This document shows positions 24,806 through 29,493 of a stretch of DNA of 41,179 nt, in pieces. The stretch is taken from NCBI GenBank assembly GCA_023667435.1, contig JAMPAB010000002.1, forward strand, positions 1 to 41,179, in the 5' to 3' direction. The stretch is from Corallococcus sp. Lineage in GTDB: Bacteria; Bacillota; Clostridia; Christensenellales; CAG-314. The stretch's first letter is position 1. Every line of letters starts with the position of its first letter. The notes beneath the pieces were generated by a model. It was not told the DNA's origin. It saw only the letters and a list, made by a program, of their open reading frames with translations, and ran no database searches. The translations under genes were made by a program, and so were the position numbers.

Positions 24806-25216
24806 TTATCTCTTGCTGAATTGCGGAGCTTTACGAGCCTTCTTCAAACCGTACTTCTTTCTTTCCTTCATACGGGGATCGCGGGTTAAGAATCCGTTCT
24901 TTTTCAAGATCGCCTTGTCCTCGCCTGCAATTACCAACGCGCGGGAAATGCCGTGACGGATTGCGCCTGCCTGTCCGGTATATCCGCCGCCCGTTACGTT
25001 TACTACCACGTCGTACTTATTCAACGTTTCCGTTGCGTTTAAGGGTTGACGAACGATATATTTCAAAGTGTCGAGACCGAAATACGCGTCGATATCGCGC
25101 TTGTTGATGGTGATATTTCCGCTGCCTCCGGGAATAAGTCTTACGCGGGCGATGGATTTCTTTCTTCTGCCCGTTCCCCAAAATTGAACCTTTTTCTTCG
25201 CTACTGTCTTAGCCAT
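24806..25216 (-). CDS. rpsI: 30S ribosomal protein S9
   Basis: The 136-residue protein has the S9 features: [16 protein letters not shown] near the N-terminus, [15 protein letters not shown], a Gly-rich [19 protein letters not shown] segment, and the basic C-terminal tail [18 protein letters not shown] that reaches tRNA at the P site. The start follows GGAGGAAT. It lies 13 bases after rplM, the invariant partner, and ends before a strong terminator, so it closes the rplM-rpsI transcript. Confidence 0.97.
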
Positions 25217-25229
25217 TGTTCATTCCTCC

Positions 25230-25664
25230 TTAGTCCAACGCAAGCATTTGAGGATGCTGCGCCTCGTGCTTGTGTTCCGCGCCTTTGTAAACGCGAAGTT
25301 TGGTGAGCATTTTTCTGCCGAGACTGTTGTGATGAAGCATTCCCTTAACCGCCTTCATCATAGCGAAGTCGCTGCGTTCGGCCATCAATTTACTGTACTT
25401 TGTCTGCTTTAAATGTCCCGGTCTGGGCGAACGGCGAACATACATCTTCTGTTCGAGTTTCTTTCCCGTAAGAACAGCTTTGTCGCAGTTCAATACTATT
25501 ACGTAATCGCCCGTATCTACATGCGGAGTAAACGTAGGTTTATTCTTTCCGCGAAGTATCGAGGCAACCTGACTTGCAACGCGACCGAGAGGTTTGCCCG
25601 CCGCGTCTACTACGTACCATTTCCTTTCAACGGCTTCTTTCTTAGCCATAAAAGTCTTAACCAT
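25230..25664 (-). CDS. rplM: 50S ribosomal protein L13
   Basis: The 144-residue protein begins [20 protein letters not shown], continues with [37 protein letters not shown], and ends with [16 protein letters not shown], all characteristic of L13, an early 23S rRNA-binding protein. The start has AGGAGA upstream. A perfect-consensus promoter and a structured leader of about 115 bases precede it, which suggests feedback control by the protein. rpsI follows after 13 bases. Confidence 0.97.
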
Positions 25665-25785
25665 TTTAAATTTCTCCTAGTATTTAAGTTTGTCGCTGTT
25701 CACGGTTGAATAATTACCGACAGTGGAATTCGGTTTAGACAAGACAGAGCTTAAAATATCTTGCCGAATTATTCACAGCCTTTCA
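25665..25785 (-). promoter_or_regulatory. Probable L13 autoregulatory mRNA leader
   Basis: The leader folds into a branched structure. GCTGT (25779-25775) and TGAATAATT (25775-25767) on the 5' side pair with ACAGC (25699-25695) and AATTATTCA (25715-25707) on the 3' side. Inside are the small stems CAAGA/TCTTG and ACCG/CGGT. Such leaders before rplM are known in low-GC Gram-positives and bind L13. I identify it by position and fold, not by a consensus match. Confidence 0.6.
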
Positions 25786-25814
25786 ATTATACAAATATAA
25801 TAAATTCGTGTCAA
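25786..25814 (-). promoter_or_regulatory. Consensus sigma-A promoter of rplM-rpsI
   Basis: TTGACA (25814-25809), a 17-base spacer and TATAAT (25791-25786): a perfect match in both boxes and in spacing. Confidence 0.92.
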
Positions 25815-25829
25815 CTATTTGACGTTAAT

Positions 25830-26198
25830 TTACGGCATTTCTTTATTGCGCGCGGATATCGCATCGTGTATTTTCTGACATACCCACACTAAAAAGATTG
25901 GAATGCAAAGGACAGTTATCGCAATCAGCACAAACGCCAACTGACACCCCAATTCAACCTCGTCGCAGGCGCTTTTATCTTTTTTCGCGCGGGTAATAAC
26001 GGCAGAAAAAATCAAAACGACCGCGCCGAGTACCGTAACGGAAAAAAGTATGAAACTTACAAGATTCGCCGTCGTAACGTTCTCCCACGTAAGCTCGCAG
26101 GAAAAATCAAATAAACACATTCCTACGACAAAGCATACGACGACCGCGATCAGTACAATGCAGTAAAAAATGTACGTTTTGGGCGTTTTTTCTTTCAT
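25830..26198 (-). CDS. Small three-helix membrane protein, unknown
   Basis: The 122-residue protein has three hydrophobic segments, at about residues 9-29, 42-67 and 83-108, with a short Lys-rich loop (TRAKKDKSACDE) between the second and third. I recognise no family. The start has GGAG 7 bases upstream. It lies 31 bases after truA and before the rplM promoter. In most Firmicutes truA is followed directly by rplM, so this gene is an insertion in a conserved block. It resembles the other inserted gene at 26969 only in being a small membrane protein. Confidence 0.65.
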   Translation of the reverse strand: MKEKTPKTYIFYCIVLIAVVVCFVVGMCLFDFSCELTWENVTTANLVSFILFSVTVLGAVVLIFSAVITRAKKDKSACDEVELGCQLAFVLIAITVLCIPIFLVWVCQKIHDAISARNKEMP

Positions 26199-26229
26199 AA
26201 AATTCTCCTTAGCGCGGAAAACCGCGTTA

Positions 26230-26967
26230 TCAGTTGTAATATACCTTTTCCAAAGTAAGTCCTTTTGCAGGCATAGTTTTGTATTTCGGCTTCGTCCCGT
26301 TCAAAGCTTTTACGACGTCGTCAGTACTGTATCTGCCCTTGCCTATCTCAGTAAGCAAACCGCACATATTGCGTACCTGATTATACAAAAACGCATTGCC
26401 GTTTACGGTAAAATAAACGGTACCGTCGGCATTTTCCGTCACATCGAAACTGTTTACCTTGCGCGTCGTTCCTTTCAGATTACTGCCCGTATTTTGAAAC
26501 GCCGCGAAATCGTGTTCGCCGACAAACAGCGCCGCAGCGCGCTTCATTGCGGAAACGTCGAGCGGTTTGTATACCTGCGTATGATTGACGTCCAACGTCG
26601 GACGACGTACGGCGGAAACGTATATACGGTAACAGTACGTCTTCGATACGGCGGAAAACCGCGCGTCGAAACCGTCGTCGACAAACTCGGCGTCCGTTAC
26701 GGCAACGGAAGACGGCAAGGAAAGATTAACTCCCAAACACAGCTTGTAAAGATTGACTTCTTTGTCCGTGACAAAGTGTGCCGTCTGCCCCTTTGCATGG
26801 ACGCCTACGTCCGTTCTGCCCGCAGCATAAATACGCACGAATTCACAATCGAAGTATTTGCCCAAAGCGCGCTCTACCGCGTCCTGGACGGAGTTGCCGT
26901 TCGTCTGACTTTGCCAACCGCAAAAGTCGGTTCCAACGTATTCTATTGTAAGTTTGATTTTTGACAT
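26230..26967 (-). CDS. truA: tRNA pseudouridine(38-40) synthase
   Basis: The 245-residue enzyme isomerises uridines 38-40 in the tRNA anticodon stem. It begins KIKLTIEYVGTDFCGWQSQ, has the catalytic Asp53 in AGRTDVGVHA, the Tyr-containing SKTYCYRIY, and the C-terminal block NAFLYNQVRNMCGLLTEIGKG that holds the RNA-binding Arg. It ends at TGA with TAA right behind it. I see no ribosome binding site; its ATG lies one base after the TAA of the preceding membrane-protein gene, so it probably relies on ribosomes finishing that gene. Any frame change in that gene could therefore affect truA. Confidence 0.95.
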   Translation of the reverse strand: MSKIKLTIEYVGTDFCGWQSQTNGNSVQDAVERALGKYFDCEFVRIYAAGRTDVGVHAKGQTAHFVTDKEVNLYKLCLGVNLSLPSSVAVTDAEFVDDGFDARFSAVSKTYCYRIYVSAVRRPTLDVNHTQVYKPLDVSAMKRAAALFVGEHDFAAFQNTGSNLKGTTRKVNSFDVTENADGTVYFTVNGNAFLYNQVRNMCGLLTEIGKGRYSTDDVVKALNGTKPKYKTMPAKGLTLEKVYYN

Positions 26968-26968
26968 A

Positions 26969-27560
26969 TTACAATTTGCTTTGTCCTAAATTGATCAACT
27001 TCGAATCCACTCGTTTGTATTGCAATGCCAACGCCAAAACATTGAGCGCTACCGCAATTAACGCAAAAAACTGCGGAATTATGAGTACGGCGAATAGCGG
27101 TATTATTTTGGCGGAAACCGTCGCAAATTGCAATACTGCGTAACATATCGAACCAGTACATAAAAATACAATTTCACATGGAATTTGTATTTTAAGAAGA
27201 CCTTTGTTCATAAATTTACACTGAATACACAGCGACCCCGAAACGGCAAACGGAATAGGAGTTATTTTAGGAAATTTGCCTTCATTATCTATTCTTGCCC
27301 AACACAATACCGCCGTCATCAACGCAACGGAACAAATAATTATTCCCAAGCAGTGCAAACTTTGAATTTCTCCCGCATTGATCATCAGAGCGCAGAATCG
27401 ATATTCCTCCGTATCCTTCCAAAGGATATCGAATTCGTTGGAACCGACAATGCCTTCGTAATTAACTACGCGCAAAACCGCAAATACACAACAGACGCAA
27501 GCAAGCGCTATAATTAAAGAGCAAATTACTACTATAATAATTTGAACGCTTTTTTTTCAT
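26969..27560 (-). CDS. Multi-pass membrane protein, out of frame after its start at an A8 tract
   Basis: The ATG at 27560 has an AGGAAAAGAG site just upstream and is followed by eight A residues. Read as written, the frame stops after 32 codons. With seven A residues it would open into 196 codons ending at 26969, with an N-terminal helix that starts MKKSVQIIIVVICSLIIALA and further hydrophobic segments at about residues 68-88, 130-147 and 150-182. The body of the protein is in the frame from a TTG at 27475 downward, which alone has no ribosome binding site. The family is unknown. The TAA is one base from the truA ATG, suggesting coupling. The A tract may be a sequencing error, a phase-variable site, or a place where polymerase slips. 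Confidence 0.6.
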
Positions 27561-27722
27561 AACTCTTTTCCTGTTTAATAATACGGTATTACTGACTTAT
27601 GTCATGCTGTTATACAACAAGTCGTCGACGTTTAACTTGCGGGCAACTTGCTTTCGACTGCTATTATACCGCGCATCGCGTCGGCAACAGTGTATCGCAA
27701 TAATCGTTACTTGCGCGCGATA

Positions 27723-28583
27723 TTAAAAATATAACCAGTTTATTCCGTTGTACTGCAACCAGCTTACGTCCGCCCACTGCGACTTCATTCCGTATACGAC
27801 GAACACCGTCACGAAAAACAGCAACGTTACAAGCGCGCCGACCAAATCTCTCCAACCGAGTTTCATCACGCGCATTTGAGTGCGTTTCGTCGCGCCCTCG
27901 TAGCAGCGGCTGTTCATTGCGTTTGCAAGTTCCTCCGCCCTGCGGAAACCGCCCACAAGCAGCGGAATCAAAATAGGAACGAACGCTTTGGCGCGGCGGA
28001 CAAGACCTCCCGTATCGAAATCGGCGCCTCTTGCTTTCTGCGCGCGTATAATTCTGTCCGTTTCTTCCAAAAGGCTGGGAATAAACGACAGCGTAAGGCT
28101 CATAATGAGCGCGAGTTCGTGTACGGGAAATCTGATTACTCTAAGCGGTTTGAGAAGACTTTCGATTGCGTGAGTTAGGTCTACGGGGGTTGTCGTCAAC
28201 ATCAACAGGCTCGACCCCACAACCAAATACACTAAGCGCAGGAACATTTTCGCCGCGTAAATCAACCCACCGTCGGTGATTACGATGAACTTCCACTCGA
28301 CAAGAACGTTGCCGTCCCTGTTGAAGAAAATATTGAGTACCACCGTGAGCAACAGCAGAAATATTATGCCTTTAACCGATCTCAAAACAGAGCGCAGAGG
28401 CACTTTCGACGCGGCGATGAGCATAACCAAAAACAGCGTAACGAACGCGAATCCGACAAAACTGATTACGAAGAAAATTCCCACCATAAACAGCAGGCAC
28501 AGAATAAGTTTTATCCGCGCGTCCATCCTATGTATGAACGAATCGGCAGGATAATACTGCCCGAAGGTTACGTCTTTAAGCAT
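27723..28583 (-). CDS. ecfT: ECF transporter transmembrane component EcfT
   Basis: The 286-residue protein is the shared membrane subunit of ECF vitamin importers. It starts with the family's GQYYPADSFIHRMDARIKLIL; has about six helices; and carries the cytoplasmic coupling motif ESLLKPLRVIRFPVHELALI followed by QKARGADF, the Ala-Arg-Gly motif that docks on the ATPases, and the second coupling stretch FRRAEELANAMNSRCYEG. The start follows GGAGG and overlaps the end of ecfA2 by 8 bases. No substrate-binding S subunit is encoded nearby, so this is a shared (group II) module serving S subunits elsewhere. Confidence 0.96.
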   Translation of the reverse strand: MLKDVTFGQYYPADSFIHRMDARIKLILCLLFMVGIFFVISFVGFAFVTLFLVMLIAASKVPLRSVLRSVKGIIFLLLLTVVLNIFFNRDGNVLVEWKFIVITDGGLIYAAKMFLRLVYLVVGSSLLMLTTTPVDLTHAIESLLKPLRVIRFPVHELALIMSLTLSFIPSLLEETDRIIRAQKARGADFDTGGLVRRAKAFVPILIPLLVGGFRRAEELANAMNSRCYEGATKRTQMRVMKLGWRDLVGALVTLLFFVTVFVVYGMKSQWADVSWLQYNGINWLYF

Positions 28584-29493
28584 CGCCGCCTCCGTACAGT
28601 TTCATTACCGCCTCGTACACGGATTCGACGGTTTTGCACCCGTCGGGAATCGGATACCCGCGCCGTTCCAGTTCGTTTGCAAACTTAGCCATATGAGGAA
28701 TTTCGAGATTCATGGAAACAATCTCGTCTTCTTTGCGGAACAGCTCGCGCGGAGAATCATCGTAAGCTACTTTACCGTCGCAGAACACTATTATTCTGTC
28801 GGCGTTTTCGTAGACTTCGTTCATATCGTGCGAAACCATTACGACCGTTACGCCCTGTTCCTTATTGAGAGCGGACACTATTGACAGAATTTCCTTTTTG
28901 CCGCGCGGATCCAACCCTGCGGTAGGCTCGTCTAAAACGAGGATCTTCGGCTGCATGGCAAGCACTCCCGCAAGGGCTACGCGCCGTTTTTCGCCGCCCG
29001 ACAAATCGAACGGAGACTTTGCCTTAACCTTGTCGAAATCCAGTCCGACAAGTTCTAAGGCGGACCTAGCCATCTCTACGCGTTTATCCTTGTCTATGCC
29101 GGAATTTTTCAGTCCGAAACACACGTCTTCGAGCACGGTATCGGCAAAGAGCTGATATTCGGGATATTGAAACACCATCCCCACATCGCCGCGCAACGCT
29201 TTAAGTTCCACCTTTTTAGCGGACAGATTGTATTGCAAAACGTACAGCCCTCCGTTTTGCACGCGTATAAGCGCGTTTAAATGCTGTACGAACGTTGTTT
29301 TGCCGCTTCCCGTACGTCCTACGACGGCGACGAACTCTCCGCGATTTACCGTTAATTCGACGTTATCCAACGCCTGCTTTGCAAAAGGCGCTTTGGGATT
29401 ATAAGTAAAACAGAGATTTCTCGCTGCAATCGCGGTCGTGCCGTCCGAAACTTCCTTAGGAAGCGTTACTGCCTTTTTGTCAGATTTCGACAT
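28576..29493 (-). CDS. ecfA2: ECF transporter ATP-binding protein EcfA2
   Basis: The 305-residue ATPase has an extra N-terminal tail of about 20 residues, the CFTYNPKAPFAKQALDNV segment typical of EcfA2, Walker A GRTGSGKTT (59-67), signature LSGGEKRRVALAGVLA, Walker B KILVLDEPTAGLD, and the switch His in VVMVSHDMNE. It pairs with EcfA1 to power uptake through EcfT. Its start overlaps ecfA1 by 28 bases and follows GGGAGGGGAAG. The C-terminal region (PHMAKFANELERRGYPIP) matches the EcfA dimer domain. Confidence 0.95.
   Translation of the reverse strand: MSKSDKKAVTLPKEVSDGTTAIAARNLCFTYNPKAPFAKQALDNVELTVNRGEFVAVVGRTGSGKTTFVQHLNALIRVQNGGLYVLQYNLSAKKVELKALRGDVGMVFQYPEYQLFADTVLEDVCFGLKNSGIDKDKRVEMARSALELVGLDFDKVKAKSPFDLSGGEKRRVALAGVLAMQPKILVLDEPTAGLDPRGKKEILSIVSALNKEQGVTVVMVSHDMNEVYENADRIIVFCDGKVAYDDSPRELFRKEDEIVSMNLEIPHMAKFANELERRGYPIPDGCKTVESVYEAVMKLYGGGDA

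Follow-up and report, generated by a model that had tools for sequence, protein, structure and literature searches.

The swrA gene of Bacillus subtilis, which has a known role and whose switching has been observed, carries a homopolymer near its 5' end that serves as an on/off site. PMC2831843 names swrA as phase variable and reports that poly(A) runs prefer the 5' ends of genes, that runs exceeding 7 as a rule show no overrepresentation, and that A8 occurs in 35 of 81 bacterial genomes. In inlA of Listeria monocytogenes, the poly(A) run lies within the first codons, a change in its length leads to early truncation of the product, and the frequency of variation in this 5' run exceeds the estimated point-mutation frequency about 1,000-fold (PMC2831843). 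A third case is dnaX of Thermus thermophilus, where a run of nine A lies late in the coding gene, the frame changes at the run, and both products are made (PMC1088944).

The locus considered here lies on contig JAMPAB010000002.1 of assembly GCA_023667435.1, in a stretch of 41,179 nt (the window, meaning the whole stretch of DNA analysed). Between an ecfT-like gene and truA, a minus-strand ATG is followed directly by eight A residues and then by GCG, as read directly from the sequence. The first-pass annotation had described this arrangement as a membrane-protein gene put out of frame, and its account of the start, the run and the 32-codon product holds as written. The adjacent frame, entered one base later, stays open for 195 codons, and we call it orfX (Table 1). 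The gene thus has, near the 5' end of its coding sequence, a homopolymer whose length decides the reading frame, as in a contingency gene.

Table 1. Features of the ecfT-truA junction in window coordinates.
Feature	Position	Strand	Remarks
truA	26230..26967	-	TIGR00071, 182 bits against a cut-off of 142.85; starts one base past the orfX stop (intervening base 26968; ATG at 26967); no clear Shine-Dalgarno
orfX, 195-codon open frame plus TAA	26969..27556	-	codons 27556-26972, TAA 26971-26969; GC 38.8%, GC3 38.8%
Frame as written from ATG 27560, 32 codons plus stop	27462..27560	-	
A8 run	27550..27557	-	directly 3' of the orfX start codon; site of the frame change
Shine-Dalgarno-like AGGAAAAGAG plus ATG of orfX	27558..27572	-	AGGAAAAGAG itself 27572-27563; ATG 27560-27558
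Promoter-like site 5' of orfX, ATGACA-16-TATTAT	27578..27605	-	10/12, by match to consensus alone
ecfT-like gene	27723..28583	-	Pfam CbiQ above cut-off; NCBIfam ECF_T_CbiQ below cut-off; ecfT is a presumptive name

Alternative starts within the long frame were considered and set aside. In that frame a TGA overlaps the ATG, and no ATG, GTG or TTG occurs before the TTG at 27475, where the first hydrophobic segment ends. The natural start of orfX is therefore ATG 27560, which places the frame break at the A-run. The ribosome binding site in front of it, previously called good, is present but of moderate strength: its duplex energy is −4.3 kcal/mol, whereas eight other starts of the window range from −5.9 to −11.7 and truA has −3.5. 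These energies ignore spacing, and the AGGA of truA lies 16 nt from its ATG.

The long frame has hydropathy peaks at residues 6-24, 69-87, 129-147 and 151-169, or about four membrane-helix-like segments, the third of which is weak and merges with the fourth; hydrophobic residues begin at about codon 7 after the ATG. The reading of a membrane-protein gene out of frame is borne out to this extent. A single-sequence fold was poor (mean pLDDT 55.2, pTM 0.46) and contained helices only. GC3 is 0.388, whereas seven other genes in the window have 0.51 to 0.62; this would allow for a gene of foreign origin or in decay. In second-order Markov simulations of the 755-nt spacer, trained on that same spacer with orfX included, at least 195 open codons arose in any of six frames in 107 of 20,000 cases. 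This rare open length, together with the hydrophobic residues that set in shortly after the ATG, suggests that orfX probably is, or until recently was, a real gene. The alternative is an open frame that arose by chance in an AT-rich spacer and never was a gene. It would account for the low GC and GC3 and for the missing homologues described below, and the simulations do reach such a length; it would leave unexplained why the hydrophobic segments set in directly behind a start codon that has a ribosome site, and why the stop falls one base from truA, and we hold it to be quite improbable.

A search of 61 genomes, its own and 60 related ones, 24 of which belong to the genus, gave no homologue of orfX, and tblastn gave no match in any ecfT-truA locus of the 22 relatives measured. 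A sample of the order (396 genomes with its own, overlapping the set of 61) yielded five matches outside the genome itself, with E-values of 0.002 to 0.007 and 16 to 19 bits, three of them with internal stops; about four would be expected at E 0.01 per genome among the 395 others, which puts these matches at chance level. Searches of genome_contigs, of viral_contigs, and by tblastn of plasmids and phages returned no homologue, and the spacer DNA had no match among plasmids. The best profile scores were 15.6 against a cut-off of 27 in Pfam and 11.2 against a cut-off of 155 in NCBIfam. The exact flanks of the A-run with 6 to 10 bases in the run had 0 matches in genome_contigs, a collection that may omit the genome itself, so that it yielded no second strain. 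Within the sets searched, orfX is therefore an orphan, or lineage-specific, gene. Downstream of truA, at 25830-26198 of the window, lies another small protein, with three hydrophobic segments, which is weakly matched in 3 relatives, namely L010, L011 and, in two pieces, L004; compared with orfX, it is not a paralogue.

An A8 run is by itself ordinary, and ATG followed by A8 is not rare: 0.22 such sites are expected per window, at least one occurred in 20 of 100 shuffles of the window, and the genome contains 3, along with 112 exact A8 runs (44 + 68). In the best reading, the case resembles an inlA-type 5' poly(A) length variant. We put the probability at about 0.5 that the sequence records a true change of length in an A-run prone to mutation, within a gene specific to the lineage, with orfX off or nearly off. 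On this reading orfX is an orphan small membrane-protein gene placed between ecfT and truA; the A-run near its start would be a hot spot for slipped-strand indels, and the run length in the sequenced genome would put it out of frame. As the remaining 195 codons contain no stop, the frame change would be recent or still reversible, unless it is an error in the consensus. The run would not be a programmed recoding signal, and TruA would be made regardless of the orfX frame. The likeness to known systems has limits. Variation in inlA was demonstrated with strains and reporter fusions (PMC2831843), whereas orfX is an unrelated orphan known from one assembly. One case of this kind cannot establish variability. 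Compared with swrA, orfX has neither a known role nor observed switching. If the indel is real, it would add one more 5' poly(A) hot spot, here in an orphan gene; little else depends on the frame break.

The main rival to a real length variant is a consensus error, under which the organism itself has a run of different length and an intact orfX. With one assembly and no homologue, a wrong consensus base fits orfX equally well; the gene is otherwise open with its start and ribosome site correctly placed, and apparent pseudogenes are often assembly errors (PMC11017572). Other sites of the same kind bear on this reading in both directions. All 11 other ATG-A8 starts, 2 in the same genome and 9 in the family, are in frame as written, over 216 to 504 codons, which makes orfX the odd one out. 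Two of the 11 (L035 and L036) are near-identical orthologues, and the nine family starts, from a search of 41 genomes with matches in 8, are a sample and not a census, the search pattern having required an AGG at a spacing absent from orfX.

Among the first 30 listed of the 112 A8 sites in the genome, a non-random set, 15 fall inside an ORF of at least 80 codons, or at its start, with the frame open across the run; the remaining 15 lie outside any such ORF. The 15 ORFs were judged by openness, without homology, and one (L057) has just 93 codons on the opposite strand. Among the sites listed, L050 and L028 are one and the same. That half of the sampled sites fall in such ORFs speaks against general miscounting of A8 in the assembly. 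A loose filter applied to 32 distinct A8 sites kept nine rows. Besides orfX, these comprise four sites with a start close upstream in the same frame and four with none upstream in that frame; among the latter, two run antisense to longer ORFs and the others are L044 and L065 (at 2730). A8 is tolerated in this genome and usually kept in frame inside ORFs, and orfX is the exception. Taking both sides together, we regard a consensus error as a credible possibility, although a doubtful one.

A different reading is that 8A is the true length and that transcriptional slippage or ribosome sliding on the run yields some full-length orfX protein. Consecutive A residues make Escherichia coli ribosomes slide (PMC4363877), and by analogy sliding on the A-run could yield a trace of the orfX product. 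According to PMC1088944, certain bacteria may show slippage on runs shorter than nine, and the paper cites a human gene whose eight-A run gives about a tenth of full-length product; in Buchnera, homopolymers hold more than half of the single-base deletions made in transcription, and these rise with run length (PMC5574713). Against this, PMC5574713 has insertions dominating in runs and deletions rarely linked to runs, with two species pooled, and PMC1088944 finds selection against A/T runs evident in many genomes at nine. The orfX run is eight, below that length, and has no homologue in which its conservation could be judged. One extra A, the commonest slippage product, does not open the long frame; it leads into the third frame, with a stop 7 codons on. 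Since insertions dominate, the frame with an extra A is closed, and selection becomes evident at nine, transcriptional rescue is less likely. The likeness to dnaX (PMC1088944) extends to an A-run in a coding gene where the frame changes; the orfX run differs in that it is shorter, stands at the start of the gene and has no homologue to keep it.

Neither the 60 relatives nor the 395 other genomes of the order yielded a homologue in which the run could be seen to be kept, and the 11 other A8 starts need no recoding, so there is no hint of routine recoding; we consider recoding at orfX improbable. The first-pass annotation had called a run at codons 2-4 a classic place for slippage or phase variation. 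As a kind of mutational hot spot this is supported (PMC2831843), but a designed rescue by slippage is not, given that no homologue was found to conserve the run and that an added A leads to a stop.

The same annotation had noted that truA starts one base after the orfX stop without a ribosome binding site, and both observations are correct (−3.5 kcal/mol). It went on to propose that frame choice at the A-run could tune truA; this would work through coupling of the stop and the start. TruA is present in 25 of 25 genus genomes, its own included, and the ecfT-truA gap could be taken from 22 relatives (L027, with truA cut, was dropped, which left 24 rows, and L026 lacks ecfT). The gap ranges from 1 to 391 nt, being at most 32 nt in 12 of the 22 and 53 to 391 nt in the other 10. 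A one-base ecfT-truA spacing occurs in 4 of the 22 (L007, L008, L014 and L024), and together with the 12 short gaps and the one-base spacing at orfX itself it makes junction coupling plausible in general. The orfX gene is absent from the junction in all 22, and it is unmatched in every relative's locus.

The missing Shine-Dalgarno is a general property of truA in the genus and cannot be taken to indicate control by the orfX frame. At −5.5 kcal/mol against a presumed anti-Shine-Dalgarno tail, a cut-off chosen after the energies of the window and of truA were known, and one that orfX (−4.3) misses and that truA in L013 (−5.4) and L025 (−5.0) misses narrowly, no Shine-Dalgarno precedes truA in 22 of 23 genus members, its own included (median −2.0). 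In the same loci this cut-off is reached by all ecfT starts (21/21) and by all starts of the control gene that we take from its sequence to be rplM (6/6); random positions reach it in 369 of 2000 cases (median −2.7). Where the gap is at least 53 nt, truA still lacks a Shine-Dalgarno in 9 of 10 relatives, those two near misses and one relative with another frame abutting truA (L010) notwithstanding. Because truA lacks the site in 22 of 23 members whatever stands upstream, its absence at this locus is uninformative about orfX, and the proposed tuning finds no support. It is a reminder that an absent Shine-Dalgarno at a gene junction means little before relatives have been checked.

A role of the A-run in junction coupling is thus a conjecture, and that frame choice at the run tunes truA we consider very unlikely. 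A stronger form, in which the run truly turns a lineage-specific membrane protein on and off and also sets TruA output through the one-base junction, would make tRNA pseudouridylation vary from cell to cell; we judge it extremely unlikely.

Some features of the junction stand apart from orfX. How TruA is initiated where the upstream gap exceeds 50 nt is puzzling, a Shine-Dalgarno being mostly absent there by the cut-off used. Rfam returned nothing within 25000-29000 of the window. In L010, another species with a gap of 391 nt, a 126-codon open frame occupies the same junction and ends five bases before truA, so the junction can accept other cargo. In L025, with a gap of 360 nt, pieces resembling CCCCGTGTTG recur in the spacer, which also has one long run each of A and of C.
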